Source: an uncultured Chromatium sp. (lineage in GTDB: Bacteria; Pseudomonadota; Gammaproteobacteria; Chromatiales; Chromatiaceae). Taken from it: 40,553 nucleotides of DNA. The notes under the pieces were generated by a model. The model was not told where the DNA came from and did not search any database. It saw only the letters and a list, made by a program, of their open reading frames with translations. The stretch lies in contig CAIUAY010000112.1 of NCBI GenBank assembly GCA_903897335.1, positions 1 through 40,553 on the forward strand. The letters run 5' to 3'. Shown in pieces: positions 32,186 through 40,553 of the stretch; position 1 is the stretch's first letter; each line of letters opens with the position of its first letter. The position numbers and the translations under genes are program-made.

Positions 32186-33124
32186 ATGAGCGCCAGAATC
32201 ATCTTTGCGGGAACGCCTGAATTTGCGGTTCCCAGTCTTGCCGCCCTGATTAATCAAAGACTTCAGATCGTCGCCGTCTACACTCAGCCGGATCGTCCTG
32301 CCGGACGTGGTCAGAAGCTCCAGATGAGCCCGGTCAAGCGTCTGGCGCTGGATCACGCCCTGCCGGTTTTCCAGCCAGAGAGCCTGAAAAAAGAGGCTGG
32401 AGCGGTTGCCGAACTGTGCGCACTGAAGGCCGACCTCATGATCGTGGTCGCCTATGGCCTGCTGCTCCCGGTCGCAGTGCTGGAGGCTCCCCGCCTGGGC
32501 TGCGTCAACGTTCATGCCTCGCTGCTGCCGCGCTGGCGCGGTGCCGCGCCGATCCAGCGAGCGGTGCTGGCGGGTGATTCACACAGCGGCGTGTGCATCA
32601 TGGGGATGGAGGCTGGTCTGGATACCGGGCCGGTCTATCATCGTGTCGAGACCCCGATTGCGCCGCATGAAACCGGCGGAACCCTGCATGACCGTCTGGC
32701 AACCCTGGGCGCACAGGCATTGTGTACGGCGCTGCCAGGCATTTTCGATAGTTCGACCGTTCCCCAGCCACAGGATGACGCACTGGCAACCTATGCCCGC
32801 AAGCTCACCAAAGAGGAAGCGCTGATCGACTGGAGTCTGCCTGCCGACACCATCGAGCGCCAGATCCGCGCCTTCAATCCCTGGCCGGTTGCCTACACCC
32901 ACCTCGACGGCGCGGTGCTGCGGATCTGGGATGCCGAGGCCGATCTGCAAACCCTGGCCTCATCAACGCCCGGCACCGTCATGACTACCGGCAGGACGGC
33001 CATCACCGTTGCCACGGGGCAGGGAACGCTGCGAATCACCCGTCTTCAGCCGTCTGGGAAAAAGCTCATGACTGCCGGCGACTATCTCAATGCCCGCCAC
33101 CTTCAGGGTGCGCAGCTTGCCTGA
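32186..33124 (+). CDS. fmt: Methionyl-tRNA formyltransferase
   Basis: A 312-residue Fmt that formylates Met-tRNAfMet. Characteristic segments are IIFAGTPEFAVPSLAAL at the N-terminus, the HASLLPRWRGAAPIQRAV active-site motif and GMEAGLDTGPVY. The C-terminal OB-like domain follows. The start at 32186 (MSARIIFAGTPEF) is chosen over an upstream in-frame ATG at 32174 because it gives the family N-terminus. It lies 67 bases after def and overlaps the start of rsmB. Confidence 0.96.
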   Translation: MSARIIFAGTPEFAVPSLAALINQRLQIVAVYTQPDRPAGRGQKLQMSPVKRLALDHALPVFQPESLKKEAGAVAELCALKADLMIVVAYGLLLPVAVLEAPRLGCVNVHASLLPRWRGAAPIQRAVLAGDSHSGVCIMGMEAGLDTGPVYHRVETPIAPHETGGTLHDRLATLGAQALCTALPGIFDSSTVPQPQDDALATYARKLTKEEALIDWSLPADTIERQIRAFNPWPVAYTHLDGAVLRIWDAEADLQTLASSTPGTVMTTGRTAITVATGQGTLRITRLQPSGKKLMTAGDYLNARHLQGAQLA

Positions 33125-34445
33125 GCACCATTCATCCGCCGGTGTGGCGGCGCGTGTCGCGGCGGCTCGCGCACTGTATCAGATCCGCTATCAAGGGCAG
33201 TCACTGACACGCAGTCTGCCCCGATACCAGACCGCGCTCACGCCTGCCGATCAGGCGCTGATGCAGGAAATGGTCTATGGCGCACTACGTCTGTTGCCAC
33301 GCCTAGAGGCGCTGGCCAGACGTTTGCTCAAACGTCCACTAAAACAGGCTGACCGGGATCTGGAGTCACTGATCCTGATCGGGCTTTATCAACTCCTCGC
33401 CATGAACACGCCAACCCATGCCGCCGTGTCCGTCACTGTCGAGGCCAGCCGTGCGCTGGGCAAACCAGCAATGGCCGCGCTCGTCAATGCACTGTTACGG
33501 CGGTTCCTGCGTGAGCGCGATGACCTGCTGGCCGAGGTTGAACAGGAACCAGAAGCCCGCTGGCTGTTTCCCGACTGGCTACTCGCAAGTCTGCGCCACG
33601 ACTGGCCGACAGACTGGGACGCGATCATCGACGCCAGCAATGCGCGTGCGCCGATGGCGCTGCGGGTCAACGGAACCCGTATCAGTCCAAGCGATTATGC
33701 TGCCCGGCTTGCGAGCGCTGGAATCGCGGCAAACCAGATTCCAGGCACTCATTCCGGCCTGCTGCTCGACCAGCCACGCCCGACCCGAGACCTGCCAGGG
33801 TTTGCCGAAGGTCTGGTTTCGATTCAGGATAGCGGTGCGCAACTCGCGGCCAAGCTGCTTGACGCCGCACCCGGACAGCGGGTGCTGGATGCTTGTGCCG
33901 CACCTGGTGGCAAGACCGCCGCAATCCTGGAACAGGCGGGCAATGCGCTGAATCTGATCGCTATCGACAGCGATGACTCGCGTCTGACCACAGTGTGCGC
34001 GACGCTTGAGCGCCTCGGTCTGTCAGCAGAAGTCCTGCCAGGCGATGCCACGTCACCCGCAGGCGACTGGAGCGACCTGCTATTTGATCGCATCCTGCTG
34101 GATGTGCCCTGCTCGGCGACCGGCGTGATCCGGCGTCACCCGGACATCAAATGGCTGCGCCGCGCCAGCGACATCACAACCCTCGTTGCGATCCAGGCAC
34201 AGATGCTCGATGCCATCTGGCCACGGCTTGCGCCGGGCGGACGTCTGCTCTACGCAACCTGTTCGCTGCTGGCCGCTGAAAATGAGTCACAGATTGCAGT
34301 TTTTCTATCGCGTCAACCACAGGCTCGTGAGATGTCGCTGGCGACAGACTGGGGGCAAGCGCGTCAGCATGGGCGGCAACTGCTGCCAACCCAAGGCGGT
34401 CACGATGGGTTTTACTACGCGCTCATCGAGCGTCTCCCTGCATGA
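33090..34445 (+). CDS. rsmB: 16S rRNA m5C967 methyltransferase RsmB
   Basis: About 451 residues. An N-terminal NusB-like RNA-binding domain (LYQIRYQGQSLTRSLPRYQ to about residue 160) precedes a Rossmann methyltransferase domain. That domain has SAM motif LDACAAPGGKTAAIL, the PCSATGVIRRHPDIKWLR motif with the first cysteine, and catalytic Cys in YATCSLL. It methylates C967 of 16S rRNA. The ATG at 33090 overlaps fmt by 35 bases and has no ribosome site. A TTG at 33117 with AGGG eight bases upstream is an alternative start. The stop overlaps the DUF4390 start by four bases. Confidence 0.94.
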   Translation: MPATFRVRSLPEHHSSAGVAARVAAARALYQIRYQGQSLTRSLPRYQTALTPADQALMQEMVYGALRLLPRLEALARRLLKRPLKQADRDLESLILIGLYQLLAMNTPTHAAVSVTVEASRALGKPAMAALVNALLRRFLRERDDLLAEVEQEPEARWLFPDWLLASLRHDWPTDWDAIIDASNARAPMALRVNGTRISPSDYAARLASAGIAANQIPGTHSGLLLDQPRPTRDLPGFAEGLVSIQDSGAQLAAKLLDAAPGQRVLDACAAPGGKTAAILEQAGNALNLIAIDSDDSRLTTVCATLERLGLSAEVLPGDATSPAGDWSDLLFDRILLDVPCSATGVIRRHPDIKWLRRASDITTLVAIQAQMLDAIWPRLAPGGRLLYATCSLLAAENESQIAVFLSRQPQAREMSLATDWGQARQHGRQLLPTQGGHDGFYYALIERLPA

Positions 34446-35026
34446 GCGCACGGTTAACCAGGCCACACCTGCCACGGGTACTGAGTCTGCTGCTTGCGCT
34501 CCTGACACAGCTCGTCGCCATCCCGGCCACTGCACGGGATGATTTCAACGTACGCGATGTGCACACCCATTTGGAAAATGGGGTCTATTTACTCAACGCC
34601 ACCATTGATGCGAAGTTCAGCGCAGAGGCGCTGGAGGCGCTCGAAAACGGCGTCCCGCTGACCATCGTGATTCATTTCCAGGTGCGTTGCGTCAAGGCAT
34701 GGCTCTGGGAAGACAGCCTACTGGATCAGCAGAGACGCTATGTCATCCGTTATAAACCGCTCGCTGACGGCTATGAGGTTTACCCGCTTCCGGGCGAACA
34801 CGGACGCCGTTTCGTCACCCGTGAGGCGGCGCTCCGTGCATTCGGCGAGCTGACCGATCTGGCGCTTATCAACCAGGATCGACTCCAGCCGGACACCGAC
34901 TACGAGGTTCAGATCAAGGTCTTTCTGGACATTGAGGCACTGCCACTGCCATTACGCCCCATCGCTTATCTCAAGCCCTCCTGGCAGCTTGCTAGCCGCT
35001 GGAGCAAATGGCCGCTCAACCGCTGA
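34442..35026 (+). CDS. DUF4390 protein
   Basis: A 194-residue protein with an N-terminal signal peptide or anchor (RVLSLLLALLTQLVAIPATA) and a DUF4390 domain. Features include YLLNATIDAKFSAEALEALENGVPLTIVIHF and the basic-rich YVIRYKPLADGYEVYPLPGE section. Family members are usually encoded next to NtrY-like kinases, as here, and no activity is established. Its ATG overlaps the rsmB TGA (ATGA). Its own TGA is part of a TGATG with a candidate ntrY start. A periplasmic role linked to the kinase is an inference from position. Confidence 0.85.
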   Translation: MSARLTRPHLPRVLSLLLALLTQLVAIPATARDDFNVRDVHTHLENGVYLLNATIDAKFSAEALEALENGVPLTIVIHFQVRCVKAWLWEDSLLDQQRRYVIRYKPLADGYEVYPLPGEHGRRFVTREAALRAFGELTDLALINQDRLQPDTDYEVQIKVFLDIEALPLPLRPIAYLKPSWQLASRWSKWPLNR

Positions 35027-37191
35027 TGCGACTGCGCGAGCTCGGTATTCTGCCGGTGGCGGCGCTGATCGGCGGGCTGTTCGTGGTGCTGGTGCTGATG
35101 CGCGATGCCGTGGAAAACTCGGAGGCGCTGAGCCGCGCTTTCGTGCCGCTGCTGTTCGTAGTGCTGGTTGGACTGCTGCTGCTGGCGGTGCTGGTAGTGG
35201 TTAATGTCGTCAAGCTGGTGCGCCGTCATCGCCGTCAGGCTGCTGGTTCGCGTCTGACCGCCCGCATCGTGATCCTCTTTGCCGTGATCTCGCTGTTGCC
35301 AGTTGGCGTGGTGTATTATTTTTCGCTCGGCTTTCTGCTGCGCGGGATCGATAGCTGGTTCGATGTCAAGATCGGCCGTGCCATGCAGGATGCCCTGCTG
35401 CTCAATCAGGCATCGTTGGATCTGAATCAGCGGGTTCTTGGCAAATACACCGAACAACTGCTTGCGGGTATCAAGGATCGCTCATCAACCGCCATCGCGC
35501 TGAGCCTGAACAATCTCCGCCGTCAGGCCGGCGCCATCGAGCTGACAGTTTATGGTTCCGGCGGTCAGGTGCTGGGCACGGCGAATGAAGACCCGACCCA
35601 ACTGGTGCCTAACCGTCCCGAACGCGAGATTCAGCAGAATGTCCGCAGTGGAACCAATTATGTTGGACTGGAAACCGGCGTCACGAATGAACTGGTGGTG
35701 CGCGCGCTGGTGCAAGACCCCGATGGCCGTGACATGCAGATGCAGGCGATCTTTCCGACCTCGGCGCGGATCAGCGAACTCTCTACTCGTCTGGAGGATG
35801 CGTATAACCGCTATACCGAACTGGCCTATCTGCGGCAGTCGCTGAAATTCAGCTTTTCGCTGACCCTGTCGCTAGTGCTGCTGTTCGGGCTGATGGCCGC
35901 GCTGATCGCTGCTTTTCATACCGCTCGGCGACTGGTCGCGCCCATCGCCGACATCGCCCGTGGAACCCGCGCCATCGCTGAAGGCGATTACGAACAGCAG
36001 ATTGCCCTGCCCAAACACGACGATGAACTCACCTTTCTAGTCGCCTCATTCAACGCCATGTCACGGCGCATCGCCCGTGCGCGTGATGACGCCGCCCGCA
36101 GCAAGCAGGCGGTCGAGACCCAGCGTAACTATCTGGAAACCGTGCTGGGTCGTCTCTCTTCGGGAGTGGTCGCTTTCGATGACAGCCAGTGTCTGCGCAC
36201 CGCCAACCCGGCGGCACGCAATATTCTAACGCTGGCTTTTGCAGACGACGCTAGCCACAGTCTGGAACAGATCGAGCGCGAGCAGCCTGATCTCAGCCCC
36301 TGGACTGAAGCGGTTCGACACCATCTGGCCGCCGGTCAGGCGTGGCGCACCGAAGTGACGCTCCAGCGCGGTGAAGGCAGCCAGACGCTCCTGTGCCGTG
36401 GGAGTCCGCTGCCGCTGCCTGATTCCGAGCAGCGTGGTCATGTCGTGGTGTTCGATGACATCACCTCGCTCATCACTGCCCAGCGCAATGCCGCTTGGGG
36501 CGAGGTGGCGCGACGCCTGGCGCATGAAATCAAAAATCCACTGACCCCAATCCAGCTCTCCGCCGAACGGCTGCGTCACAAGCTGCTGTCCAAGGCGGAT
36601 GACGCCGATGCCCGGATCATCGAACGCGCCACCAGCACCATCATCGCGCAGGTCGAGGCGATGAAATCCATGGTCAACGATTTTTCGGACTATGCCCGGG
36701 CGCCACGCATCCAGCCAGAGCCACTGGTTCTCGACCAGCTCATCCAGGAGGTTCTGGATCTCTACCGCAGTGCCGGAATCCCCGCATTACAGATCCATCT
36801 GGATGCGGCAGGGATGCTGGTACGTGGCGACCCACTGCGACTGCGCCAGCTCCTCCATAATCTCATCAAGAATGCGCAGGAGGCGCTGGAAGGTCATGCT
36901 GATGGCCGGATCACAGTGACAACGACATGGATCACGCAGACAGAGATGGAATCCGGCGCGGCTGTTGAGTTAAGCATCACTGATAACGGCCCTGGTTTCG
37001 ATGCGCGTCTGCTGGAGCGGTTGTTTGAACCCTATGTCACCACTAAAGCAAAAGGAACCGGTTTGGGGCTCGCCATCGTCAAGAAGATTATTGAGGAACA
37101 CAGCGGTATGATCATGGTCGAGAACACCAGCGAGGGTGCCTTGATCAGAATCCGGCTGCCGGTCTGTCAGGTCGCTGCGTCACCAGCCTAA
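35026..37191 (+). CDS. ntrY: NtrY-like sensor histidine kinase
   Basis: About 721 residues. The start is put at 35026, where TGATG couples it to the DUF4390 stop; an ATG six codons upstream (35008) has GGAG only three bases away. Three membrane helices lie in the first 105 or so residues. A periplasmic stretch of about 170 residues and another helix (FSFSLTLSLVLLFGLMAALIAAF) follow. A HAMP domain (VAPIADIARGTRAIAEGDYEQQI), a PAS region and HisKA with the phospho-His motif LAHEIKNPLTPIQLSAERLR come next. HATPase_c carries LIKNAQEAL, DNGPGF and GTGLGLAIVKK. All kinase motifs are intact. It phosphorylates the NtrX-like protein encoded 17 bases downstream. Confidence 0.94.
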   Translation: MRLRELGILPVAALIGGLFVVLVLMRDAVENSEALSRAFVPLLFVVLVGLLLLAVLVVVNVVKLVRRHRRQAAGSRLTARIVILFAVISLLPVGVVYYFSLGFLLRGIDSWFDVKIGRAMQDALLLNQASLDLNQRVLGKYTEQLLAGIKDRSSTAIALSLNNLRRQAGAIELTVYGSGGQVLGTANEDPTQLVPNRPEREIQQNVRSGTNYVGLETGVTNELVVRALVQDPDGRDMQMQAIFPTSARISELSTRLEDAYNRYTELAYLRQSLKFSFSLTLSLVLLFGLMAALIAAFHTARRLVAPIADIARGTRAIAEGDYEQQIALPKHDDELTFLVASFNAMSRRIARARDDAARSKQAVETQRNYLETVLGRLSSGVVAFDDSQCLRTANPAARNILTLAFADDASHSLEQIEREQPDLSPWTEAVRHHLAAGQAWRTEVTLQRGEGSQTLLCRGSPLPLPDSEQRGHVVVFDDITSLITAQRNAAWGEVARRLAHEIKNPLTPIQLSAERLRHKLLSKADDADARIIERATSTIIAQVEAMKSMVNDFSDYARAPRIQPEPLVLDQLIQEVLDLYRSAGIPALQIHLDAAGMLVRGDPLRLRQLLHNLIKNAQEALEGHADGRITVTTTWITQTEMESGAAVELSITDNGPGFDARLLERLFEPYVTTKAKGTGLGLAIVKKIIEEHSGMIMVENTSEGALIRIRLPVCQVAASPA

Positions 37192-37208: not shown

Positions 37209-38576
37209 ATGAGCGCAACACATATTCTGGTCGTCGACGATGAACCGGACATCCGTGGTCTGGTTCAGGAAATTCTGGAGGATGAGGGCTATGTCATCGC
37301 CATCGCCAAAAACGGCGAAACCGCACGTCTTGCACTGCGCGAGCGGCGCCCGGATCTGATCCTGCTCGACATCTGGATGCCGGATATCGACGGCATCACG
37401 CTGCTGAAAGAATGGGTGGAAGACGACGCATTGCCCTGTCCAGTGATCATGATGTCCGGGCATGGAACGGTGGAAACGGCCGTCGAAGCGACTCGGCTCG
37501 GTGCCTATGACTTTCTCGAAAAGCCGCTCTCGATGGCCAAGCTGCTACTGACCGTCGAGCGGGCACTGCAAGCGGACAAACTCCAGCAGGAAAACCTCGG
37601 TCTGAAGCGCCGCACCCCGCAGGTGCATGAGCCCATCGGGCGCAGCGCGACCATGCAGCGACTGCGTGAACAGGTTAAACGCATCGCCCAGCATGACACC
37701 TGGGTACTGATCATGGGCGAAGCCGGCAGTGGCCGCGAGACCTTTGCCCGCTATCTGCACTCGCAGAGCGCACGGCGTGAGCGGCCGTTCGTGGATCTCA
37801 GCGTCTCCTCGCTGTCAGGCGACAACGCGTCACGCGAACTCTTCGGCACTGAAGAAAACGGACATGCCCATTATGGCAGTCTGGAAAAAGCGGCGGGTGG
37901 CACGCTGCTACTGGATGAAGTGGCCGACATGGAACTCGATGCCCAGCTCAAACTCCTGGGCGCACTCGACAGCGGCTCATTCCTGCGCGTGGGCGGCAAC
38001 GAGCCGGTGCGGATCGACGTGCGCATCGTGGCCGTGACTCAACGCAATCTGGAAGACGAAGTGCGGGCAGGCCGCTTCCGCGAGGATCTGTTCTATCACC
38101 TCAATGTCGTCCCGCTGAACGTGCCGTCGCTACAGGAACATGCCGAAGACGTGCCGGATCTGCTGAATTTCTATCTGGATTATTTTGCGACCCACGAAAA
38201 ACTCCCCTACCGCCGTTTTAATGTTGGTGCCCAGAATTTTCTGCGCAACTATGCCTGGCCGGGCAATGTGCGCGAACTCAAAAACCTGGTGCAGCGGGTG
38301 TTGATCCTGGGGATGGGCGACGAGATCGGCCTGAAAGAGGTCGAGAGCGCACTCGGTGCGCCGCCGCCGCTCCAGATCCAGGCGTTAGAGGGGATGGTCT
38401 CGTTCGATCAACCATTACGCACGGCGCGTGAACAGTTTGAAAAAGCGTATCTGGATTACCAGCTCGAAAAACATGCCGGCAACGTCAGCAAAATGGCCAA
38501 GGAAGCCGGCATGGAACGCACCCATCTCTATCGCAAGCTGCGCTCGCTAGGGATCGAGATCAAGGAACGCCGATGA
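37209..38576 (+). CDS. ntrX: NtrX-like response regulator with degenerate sigma54-activator domain
   Basis: A 455-residue regulator. The receiver domain (1-120) has the acidic pair Asp10-Asp11, phospho-acceptor Asp54 (LLDIWMPDIDG) and Lys105 (FLEKPLS). The AAA+ domain (about 142-375) carries a Walker A-like GEAGSGRE with Arg176 where other family members have Lys. Walker B LLLDEV is intact, and so is the GRFREDLFYHLNVVPL segment. The GAFTGA sigma54-contact loop is missing: after ELFG comes TEENGHAHYGSLEKAAGG. The C-terminal Fis-type HTH is intact (GNVSKMAKEAGMERTHLYRKL). It therefore likely acts without classical sigma54 activation, and ATP use may be impaired. It follows ntrY by 17 bases and ends 11 bases before the convergent mobB. 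Confidence 0.93.
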   Translation: MSATHILVVDDEPDIRGLVQEILEDEGYVIAIAKNGETARLALRERRPDLILLDIWMPDIDGITLLKEWVEDDALPCPVIMMSGHGTVETAVEATRLGAYDFLEKPLSMAKLLLTVERALQADKLQQENLGLKRRTPQVHEPIGRSATMQRLREQVKRIAQHDTWVLIMGEAGSGRETFARYLHSQSARRERPFVDLSVSSLSGDNASRELFGTEENGHAHYGSLEKAAGGTLLLDEVADMELDAQLKLLGALDSGSFLRVGGNEPVRIDVRIVAVTQRNLEDEVRAGRFREDLFYHLNVVPLNVPSLQEHAEDVPDLLNFYLDYFATHEKLPYRRFNVGAQNFLRNYAWPGNVRELKNLVQRVLILGMGDEIGLKEVESALGAPPPLQIQALEGMVSFDQPLRTAREQFEKAYLDYQLEKHAGNVSKMAKEAGMERTHLYRKLRSLGIEIKERR

Positions 38577-38587
38577 GCGGGAAGCTA

Positions 38588-39118
38588 TCAGCGAATGGCG
38601 AGCTGAGACAGGATGAAGTCAGCGATGGCCTGTGCGTCATCGAGCGGCAGGACGACTGGATGCAAGGGAGCAGGCAGTGGATCAGCGGTTGCCACCGCGA
38701 TAATGTCAGCGTCATCAGGATAGAGCGGTGCCTGACCGAGCGCTGCGCGGTAGACCTCGATCTTAGGATAACAGGCATGTTTGAAGCCCTCGACCAGAAT
38801 CAGGTCGAGACGTTCTGACTCAAAGCGGGACAGCATCGCGTGTAGATCGGGGTCGATGCCTCTGGATGGATTTTCAACCTGTAACGCCCAGCGTTCACGC
38901 GAAGCAAGCAGGGTCTGGGAGGCACCGGCGGCGCGGATCTCAAAGCTGTCCTTGCCTGACACGTCCAGGTCGAATGTATGGTGCGCGTGTTTGAGATAGC
39001 CAACCCGCAACCCCTGACCATGCAGCACCGCGACGAGTCGGCGCAGCAGGGTCGTCTTGCCGCTGCCGCTGGGCGCGACGACGCCGAACACCGGAATGGA
39101 ATCACCCTGGATCGTCAT
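38588..39118 (-). CDS. mobB: Molybdopterin-guanine dinucleotide biosynthesis protein MobB
   Basis: A 176-residue P-loop GTPase of the MobB family. The Walker A region is VAPSGSGKTTLLRRLVA (residues 14-30), followed by LKHAHHTFDLDVSGKDSFEIRAAGA and LILVEGFKHACYPKIEVYR, which are characteristic of MobB. It assists MobA in attaching GMP to molybdopterin. The ATG overlaps the HDOD gene stop by four bases (ATGA), an unexpected pairing. No mobA gene is in the window. Confidence 0.93.
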   Translation of the reverse strand: MTIQGDSIPVFGVVAPSGSGKTTLLRRLVAVLHGQGLRVGYLKHAHHTFDLDVSGKDSFEIRAAGASQTLLASRERWALQVENPSRGIDPDLHAMLSRFESERLDLILVEGFKHACYPKIEVYRAALGQAPLYPDDADIIAVATADPLPAPLHPVVLPLDDAQAIADFILSQLAIR

Positions 39119-40353
39119 TCTTTCGTGCCTTTGAGCATTTCTGTCACTGCTGCAAGCTGCTCGCCCGCTTCAGCGATCACATCGACTGCGCCTTGCGCTT
39201 CAGAAAGTCCCAGACCCAGTTTGAGATAGGCGGGCACGTTATCATAATGAGGCAGTGGGCCTTCCGCGTCTGACTGGTTGAGTCGATAGAGACGGGCGAC
39301 CAGAACGATATCGCAGACATCCGGCTGGTCGCCACGGTCGCGGTACCACTGATCTGATTCCCGCACCACGTCCACCAGATCAGACTCCAGACCCCAGTAG
39401 CGCACCACCATCTCGCCGATCATCACCCGCAGCTTGAGAATCGCAGCATCCAGTTCAGCGTCGTCGATCTCACGGTAATAGCGACTGACATGATCCAGGA
39501 TCGGGATCACGCCGACATCATGCAGCAGCCCTGCCAGTAGGGCATGTTCCGGCTGACAGCCACCGCCATGACGGGCGATCACGAAGCTTAACGCGGAAAT
39601 ATGCACACTACGGTTCCAGAGATCCTTGATTCGCTGCTTCATCAGCGGTGATTTAGTCTTGAACACCTTCTGCATGGCCATGCCGAGCACGACTGAGCGG
39701 GTCATGTTGAAACCGAGCCGAATGATCGCATCGCGGACATCCGTGGTGGGTCGGGCACCACGATAAACCGGGCTGTTGGCAAGCCGGATCAGCCCACCGG
39801 TCACGGCAGGATCGATCTGCACGATGCGAGCCAGTTGCATCGACGTGACCGCTGGATTATTCATGGCATCCTGGATGGCTCGCGCGACCTTTGGCAGCGA
39901 TGGCAGTTCCAGACTGCCCTGCTTGCAGGCTTGATAGAAGCGGATGAGCATGGCGCTTTCGACAATGCTGAGATCCATCTCGTCAAACGAGTCGCCAACT
40001 GGCTGGCGATCACCAGTCAGGCTTTCGTAAAGCTGACGATCAAGGCGCAGCAACTGCACTTCGGTCAGAGCCACGGCAGAATCCCGCAGACGCCCCGACT
40101 CGAATACGGGCTGACAGGCGCGCAGCGAACCCGACTCGATGATTTCCTTGCTGGCATCCCGCAGCAGACAGAGCTTGCCGGTCAGCACATAATCCAGCCA
40201 GGGTGCGTCATGGACTGCGGTCAGCTTTTTGCCGGTCGGGAGACTGGCAATAATCCCGCTTTGCGCAAGACGCGCACGCTGCTCACGGCTCAGGCGATGA
40301 ACCGGCGTCAGATCCTGCAAGGTTTCTGCAGACAGTTCGTGCGTGGCATTCAC
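39115..40353 (-). CDS. HDOD-domain protein with cNMP-like N-terminal region
   Basis: A 412-residue cytoplasmic protein starting at a GTG. That start is chosen because GGAG lies eight bases upstream. The longer frame beginning TTG at 40389 has no ribosome site and starts within the IS end. The first 130 or so residues resemble a cyclic-nucleotide-binding-like region (LSREQRARLAQSG...VLTGKLCLLRDAS). The HDOD domain follows at about 140-345, with LPSLPKVARAIQDAMNNPAVTSMQLARIVQIDPAVTGGLIRLANSP and HALLAGLLHDVGVIPIL. HDOD proteins act in signalling and c-di-GMP-linked regulation; no EAL or GGDEF domain is attached. Confidence 0.87.
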   Translation of the reverse strand: MNATHELSAETLQDLTPVHRLSREQRARLAQSGIIASLPTGKKLTAVHDAPWLDYVLTGKLCLLRDASKEIIESGSLRACQPVFESGRLRDSAVALTEVQLLRLDRQLYESLTGDRQPVGDSFDEMDLSIVESAMLIRFYQACKQGSLELPSLPKVARAIQDAMNNPAVTSMQLARIVQIDPAVTGGLIRLANSPVYRGARPTTDVRDAIIRLGFNMTRSVVLGMAMQKVFKTKSPLMKQRIKDLWNRSVHISALSFVIARHGGGCQPEHALLAGLLHDVGVIPILDHVSRYYREIDDAELDAAILKLRVMIGEMVVRYWGLESDLVDVVRESDQWYRDRGDQPDVCDIVLVARLYRLNQSDAEGPLPHYDNVPAYLKLGLGLSEAQGAVDVIAEAGEQLAAVTEMLKGTKE

Positions 40354-40378
40354 GCCATTCTCTCCATTTGACTGTAAC

Positions 40379-40553
40379 CTACATGTCAAGTCCCGTTAGA
40401 TTATAGACCAGCTTTTTGAAGCGTTCGGGGCATGTTTGTTGCCAGTCTTTGAGAGCTTGAATCGGCGCGATGTGTCCCAGCGCCTTTTGCGGGATCTGGT
40501 GATTGTATAACCTCACATAGCCGGTGAGGGTGTCCGCCAGGTTCTGTGCGGAA
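40379..40553 (-). pseudogene. IS481-family transposase C-terminus (partial)
   Basis: The minus strand from the right edge reads YVRLYNHQIPQKALGH, then IAPIQALKDWQQTCPERFKK, and ends LVYNLTGLDM with stop TAG at 40381-40379. This is the C-terminus of IS481-family DDE transposases (family pattern YNH..PQ.ALG...P..A...W....P..F.K). The 5' part lies beyond the window, so I cannot tell whether the rest is intact; the type is set to pseudogene only because it is partial here. The stop lies outside the inferred element end at 40384. Confidence 0.75.
40384..40553 (-). mobile_element. IS481-family element, right end
   Basis: Read on the plus strand, the element would begin TGTCAAGTCCCGTTAG at 40384, matching the TGT...ACA termini typical of IS481 elements. 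Its end is 31 bases upstream of the HDOD start codon. The other terminus is outside the window. Confidence 0.5.

Follow-up and report, generated by a model that had tools for sequence, protein, structure and literature searches.

The NtrX protein encoded in the window (the whole stretch of 40,553 nucleotides that was analysed) probably works as a phosphorylation-driven, sigma-54-independent DNA-binding switch that carries its AAA+ domain as a non-hydrolysing scaffold. A probability of about 0.75 is given to this reading. The protein itself is genuine and conserved, and most likely functional as a regulator. Its gene, ntrX, occupies positions 37,209 to 38,576 of the forward strand and is one frame of 455 amino acids in the list of open reading frames, uninterrupted as the initial annotation had stated. 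The product was recognized as a response regulator from this frame and from Pfam and NCBIfam matches; the Pfam models matched were those of a receiver, the Sigma-54 interaction domain, its lid and a Fis helix-turn-helix (HTH).

The initial annotation had also reported that an arginine replaces the Walker A lysine and that GAFTGA is missing after ELFG, and the translation and alignment agree with both. Walker A reads GEAGSGRE (residues 170 to 177; 37,716 to 37,739, forward strand), with Arg176 encoded by CGC at 37,734 to 37,736. ELFG (residues 210 to 213) is followed by TEENGHAHYG (37,848 to 37,877), a shortened loop at the place of L1 with its GAFTGA. The end first assigned to this segment, 37,875, falls within residue 223, which is counted here as the last residue of the replaced loop. 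From ELFG to the conserved GG (residues 210 to 231), the window NtrX and all 69 aligned clade sequences span 22 residues, against 27 in each of six other activators encoded in the same genome, so that the window loop is five residues shorter. Walker B (LLLDE, residues 233 to 237; 37,905 to 37,919), the GRFRED stretch with the first arginine finger, Arg291 (38,070 to 38,087), the sensor II residue Arg355 (38,271 to 38,273) and the Fis-type HTH (PF02954, residues 407 to 445; 38,427 to 38,543) are kept. An account that lists Walker B, GRFRED and the HTH as retained, as the earlier one did, is thus correct but incomplete. The second arginine finger, present in all six control activators of the genome, is replaced by His297 (38,097 to 38,099), and the switch asparagine, present in five of the six, by Ser198 (37,800 to 37,802); the names of these catalytic sites are taken to follow PspF. 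Without GAFTGA in L1, the Walker A lysine and two arginine fingers, the window NtrX lies outside the definition of a sigma-54 activator (bacterial enhancer-binding protein, bEBP). Its AAA+ domain is most likely unable to hydrolyse ATP, because the lysine is changed to arginine and both the second arginine finger and the switch asparagine are lost.

The receiver domain (residues 6 to 116; 37,224 to 37,556) retains D11, D54, S83 and K105 in the alignment, and the earlier claim of intact phosphorylation residues was thereby confirmed. The same four letters were found in all 292 aligned NtrX-type sequences. Across NtrX-type sequences, catalysis decays and receiver input does not. A receiver, an AAA+ domain and a Fis HTH in one protein adjoining ntrY place the window protein in the NtrX family, and its best NCBIfam match is NF051870 (NtrX). 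The score of 486.3 bits is below the curated cut-off of that model (600 bits), a threshold exceeded in 37 of 150 genomes and, of the controls, in Caulobacter. Because the cut-off is read as that of an alpha-centred model, the name NtrX was kept, with this caveat.

The substitution is shared throughout the window's clade. The sample of the order comprised 70 proteins, the window included, made up of the closest ones and others picked for spread over genera; Arg176 was present in all 70 and in all 19 named clade relatives, although the named and the other sets may include the same species twice. Among relatives with a species name, the closest include Thiorhodococcus drewsii (92%), Chromatium weissei (91%) and Thiocapsa roseopersicina (89%), and these put the window within or close to the Chromatiaceae. 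The arginine is encoded by four different codons (CGC, CGG, CGT and CGA in 35, 11, 3 and 1 of 50 sequences). Among the order sequences, the Walker B Asp was found in 68 and the Glu in all 70, Arg291 in 69 and Arg355 in 66. Of the 147 genomes sampled in the order, 143 gave an NtrX match (E up to 1e-80), and at this threshold four had none. A comparison of 12 close relatives gave dN/dS values of about 0.040 for the AAA+ core (57 of 66 pairs), 0.037 for the receiver (58 of 66) and 0.020 for the HTH (44 of 66), uncorrectable pairs having been dropped; dS was about 1, near saturation. The AAA+ domain is under purifying selection.

The source genome is a 3.29-Mb draft in 277 contigs, which lends some initial weight to a sequencing or assembly error or to a decaying pseudogene. 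Close homologues carrying both GAFTGA and the Walker A lysine had been named as the sign of such an error; neither a GAFTGA-like motif nor the lysine occurs in any of 89 clade sequences, which favours the original observation. Since all 89 sequences share Arg176 and lack the motif, the arginine is written in four codons, dN/dS is about 0.04 and the frame is intact, error and decay are ruled out, with a negligible probability left to them. The absence of sigma-54 as the cause of the motif loss was rejected as well. An rpoN match is present in the window's genome and in all 147 sampled genomes of the order, and the six other activators of the host keep the Walker A lysine together with GAFTGA (five) or GSFTGA (one); the loss is therefore not due to missing sigma-54. 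The same rpoN and canonical activators would allow NtrX to activate sigma-54 through another surface or in mixed oligomers with one of these proteins, but a loop five residues short of the canonical length, without GAFTGA, and the loss of the Walker A lysine and second arginine finger make this very improbable, and GAFTGA is called essential in the portions of published work consulted.

The gene row leading to ntrX is fmt, rsmB, a DUF4390 gene, ntrY and ntrX. On the forward strand, rsmB (33,090 to 34,445) is the upstream neighbour of the DUF4390 gene (34,442 to 35,026; PF14334, E 4.9e-48), whose product is a PlrP homologue by domain and which overlaps ntrY (35,008 to 37,191). The ntrY product is a sensor kinase with HAMP, weak PAS, HisKA and HATPase_c matches and the motif LAHEIKNPL. 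It was named from its frame and position, its HAMP-HisKA-HATPase domains and its homologues, the NtrY_N match being below the Pfam cut-off. The DUF4390 gene stands directly before the sensor kinase gene, as in NtrYX systems of the PlrP type. In Bordetella, PlrSR/PlrP, a member of the NtrYX family, has the same order of rsmB, DUF4390 gene, sensor and regulator as the window, and PlrP was proposed there as a third component restraining the phosphatase activity of the sensor; in the accessible text of that source, the genetic demonstration of PlrP control is confined to Bordetella (PMC13001219). By homology, the window NtrY may be under control of the PlrP type.

DUF4390 was found in 181 of 274 genomes of the sampled class. 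Eighty DUF4390 loci were fetched, one per family and best scores first, among the matches listed. All 80 contain ntrY, and in 77 the next gene is ntrX in the same orientation, with a spacing that ranges from an overlap of 8 bp to a gap of 113 bp. In one of the three exceptions (L185), the contig ends before ntrX could show; in L189 (genome G386) and L221 (genome G337), DUF4390 and ntrY are followed by other genes, and a full-length NtrX is encoded elsewhere in both genomes. The genes after ntrY in L221 are presumably a comM-like gene on the opposite strand and then glnK- and amtB-like genes. In G197, of the same genus as G337, NtrX lies on the DUF4390 contig, several kilobases away. Behind some homologues trkA/trkH are described (PMC13001219, as far as its available text goes); the window instead continues with mobB and a gene for an HDOD-domain protein, both on the reverse strand (38,588 to 40,389). 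GCAN9TGC, given as a putative NtrX site in the consulted part of PMC7240162, was found 23 times in the window against 28.06 expected by chance. Because these matches do not exceed chance, no NtrX target was identified in the window.

Beyond the window's clade, NtrX-type sequences were compared by group; the labels alpha, beta and Zetaproteobacteria (family f182) are inferred assignments. Adding the beta-like proteins to the existing alignment misaligned the AAA+ region, so that alignment was discarded and everything was realigned. The six own-genome activators, which served as controls, were dropped before counting, as was L181, which has no AAA+ domain, from the later realignment on. Rows L176 and L224, cut by contig ends, were kept, and L224 was counted as noncanonical because of the cut. 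Only 5 of 268 NtrX-type sequences have GAFxGA with any fourth letter, and 2 match the stricter GAFTGA expression. The five carriers are L268 and four proteins of f182 (L262, L263, L264 and L279). These f182 proteins keep the long loop, with GAFTGA, GAFSGA or GAFPGA, and the full catalytic set, and may represent the ancestral state.

The full set of catalytic residues (K, DE, R, R and R) was found in 10 of the 15 sequences that come from f182 and from further families belonging to neither alpha nor gamma, in 33 of 35 alpha-like sequences and in 11 of 148 other gamma sequences; it was complete in none of the 69 sequences of the window's clade and in none of 25 long beta-like ones. The 11 other gamma proteins keep the set without GAFTGA, so loss of the loop need not be followed by loss of catalysis. 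Five proteins (L265, L266, L267, L271 and L278) have DA or DS in Walker B, the Glu being gone while the lysine and both arginine fingers are kept, and perhaps took a different route to losing hydrolysis. Fifteen of the 40 NtrX fetched from the beta-like order (L280 to L293 and L295) are only 212 to 273 amino acids long. The Pfam receiver model matched all 15 of these and the Fis HTH model 14; no Sigma-54 or AAA+ Pfam model matched any of them. The other 25, of 415 to 432 amino acids, have a degenerate AAA+ remnant. Of the best matches in the beta-like order, 15 of 59 are shorter than 310 amino acids, a share that may be biased because the query was itself a short NtrX. Beta NtrX is stated to lack the AAA+ domain in the consulted text of PMC13001219; the window NtrX has one, and the remnants in 25 of 40 beta-like proteins also differ from this statement. 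The receiver-HTH module can evidently do without the ATPase, since the short beta-like forms have no AAA+ match and the catalytic set is complete in none of the 25 long forms.

The decay between groups thus looks graded, with the loop lost first, then catalytic residues and, in one group, the whole domain. The loss of GAFTGA is widespread in NtrX and much older than the change from lysine to arginine; Brucella NtrX has a shortened loop yet keeps the lysine, which places the loss of the loop early and the arginine later. The suggestion in the initial annotation that the protein was repurposed as a DNA-binding switch therefore fits the comparative evidence in its main point, loss of sigma-54 contact with intact phosphorylation input, but the loss of GAFTGA is not peculiar to this protein.

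For the tree (FastTree, 225 rows, trait columns left out) and the pocket test, rows more than 88% identical were dropped. The 29 rows of the window's clade stand together with no foreign row among them (support 89), all 29 with arginine, and the window NtrX is placed among DUF4390-linked NtrX. Parsimony gave 10 losses and 2 regains of the lysine, which are confined to gamma and beta-like rows; the alpha-like and outgroup rows show neither. Six of the 10 losses lie in neither the window's clade nor beta and led to arginine in one to four rows each. Because arginine arose in these few other gamma lineages, the substitution is not unique to the window's clade; what is unique is its fixation. For DE in Walker B, parsimony called for 15 "gains" against 9 "losses", and since such reversals prevent an ordering of single losses inside gamma, and 72 of the 222 inner branches are weak (starred), the tree is used for the one arginine event in the window's clade and for the group-level pattern only.

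Whether the AAA+ domain still handles nucleotide was approached through eight pocket sites (G170, G173, G175, R176, D236, E237, R291 and R355). In the 29 dereplicated rows of the window's clade, their conservation was 0.987 against a domain mean of 0.808, and 10 of 10,000 random sets of AAA+ positions were as high; when the test was restricted to the five catalytic sites, 121 of 10,000 were. In the alpha-like set, the corresponding numbers were 0 of 10,000 for the eight sites and 10 of 10,000 for the five. The five sites were no better than random in other gamma NtrX (3,342 of 10,000) and worse than random in beta-like NtrX (8,387 of 10,000). Because the pocket of the clade is more conserved than random AAA+ positions, some nucleotide chemistry could survive there. 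In other P-loop proteins, a Walker A lysine-to-arginine change can leave binding intact and stop hydrolysis.

Two forms of the scaffold are thus to be considered. The domain may bind ATP tightly as a cofactor that is not hydrolysed, the arginine locking the bound state, so that bound nucleotide and not phosphorylation alone would set the dimer geometry or report energy status. The conserved pocket, contrasted with its lack of conservation in other gamma NtrX, speaks for this, as do the closest structures, which are those of NtrX, two of the three entries being titled with ATP or ADP; folding alone, though, can conserve the Walker A glycines, and the second arginine finger and switch asparagine are lost. 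Alternatively, the domain may be a dead scaffold whose only role is to keep receiver and HTH aligned within the dimer, consistent with catalytic sites that differ between lineages of gamma NtrX and with the AAA+ domain not being found in part of the beta-like order, but at odds with a pocket whose conservation in the window's clade exceeds that of the remaining domain. Because the clade swapped the lysine but kept most other pocket sites, both forms were weighted equally, each at somewhat under an even chance.

Under the preferred reading, that of a sigma-54-independent switch with a non-hydrolysing scaffold, the gene would be a true ntrX, of the kind found in beta and gamma with the gene order rsmB-plrP-ntrY-ntrX. 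The phosphorylation of Asp54 would be set by NtrY, itself probably adjusted by the PlrP-like DUF4390 protein of the periplasm, and this phosphorylation in turn would control DNA binding through the Fis HTH. NtrX would then activate or repress promoters without sigma-54 contact, possibly those served by sigma-70. The AAA+ domain would keep its fold and most of the nucleotide pocket and perform no sigma-54 remodelling; it would act as a folded or nucleotide-bound dimer scaffold. A bolder extension, considered rather doubtful, is that the single lysine-to-arginine change made the AAA+ domain of the clade an ATP-locked, non-hydrolysing switch under selection that reads both phosphorylation and bound nucleotide, and that the phylum-wide series of losses (loop, catalysis, domain) records the passage from a sigma-54 activator to an ordinary transcription factor.

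Databases label such proteins as sigma-54 activators, as in the Pfam name Sigma-54 interaction domain, and for purple sulfur bacteria such labels would lead to wrong predictions of regulons. The graded states of NtrX also open to study the order in which sigma-54 contact, catalysis and the domain itself disappear from an AAA+ activator.

The AlphaFold2 model of the window NtrX (mean pLDDT 84.3, pTM 0.69) has two short strands (residues 213 to 216 and 219 to 222) at the position of the activators' L1 loop. Its six best structure matches are chains of Brucella NtrX entries, titled with ATP (5M7N), with ADP (5M7P) or with no ligand named (5M7O). The whole-chain rmsd of 15.9 to 16.7 Å against the best matches is large because the domain arrangement differs or is unsure; when the comparison is confined to the AAA+ domain, many activators agree to about 2 Å. 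By sequence, the best match among solved structures is likewise Brucella abortus NtrX (E 6.7e-108). It resembles the window NtrX in having three domains, no GAFTGA and a likewise shortened loop, and differs in keeping the Walker A lysine (GPSGAGKE) and the second-finger arginine, where the window NtrX has Arg176 and His297. The 2017 structure paper by Fernandez on Brucella NtrX reportedly describes bound ATP, no ATPase activity and the lack of GAFTGA.

NtrX without GAFTGA is already known, and the window's clade carries a decay that has been described before one stage further. A literature search of open-licence papers found no report of arginine in the Walker A of NtrX, and a fixed lysine-to-arginine change in an otherwise conserved pocket is new as far as the literature searches show. 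Thioalkalivibrio thiocyanoxidans NtrX, which resembles the window NtrX in having no GAFTGA, is tabulated among putative enhancer-binding proteins without this motif in the consulted part of PMC5744179. The NtrX of Thioalkalivibrio sulfidiphilus keeps the Walker A lysine, unlike the window NtrX. In the available portion of PMC10274813, both NtrC and NtrX of Caulobacter are described as lacking GAFTGA, some NtrC-type proteins are named as working at sigma-70 promoters, and Rhodobacter capsulatus NtrC is said to require ATP binding; other NtrC-type proteins of that kind are listed in the corresponding portion of PMC3162934. Crystal entries for VpsR mention binding of c-di-GMP. According to the same two sources, Caulobacter NtrC, R. 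capsulatus NtrC, HupR, TyrR and VpsR have no working GAFTGA and act, or probably act, without sigma-54; these proteins belong to other subfamilies than the window NtrX.
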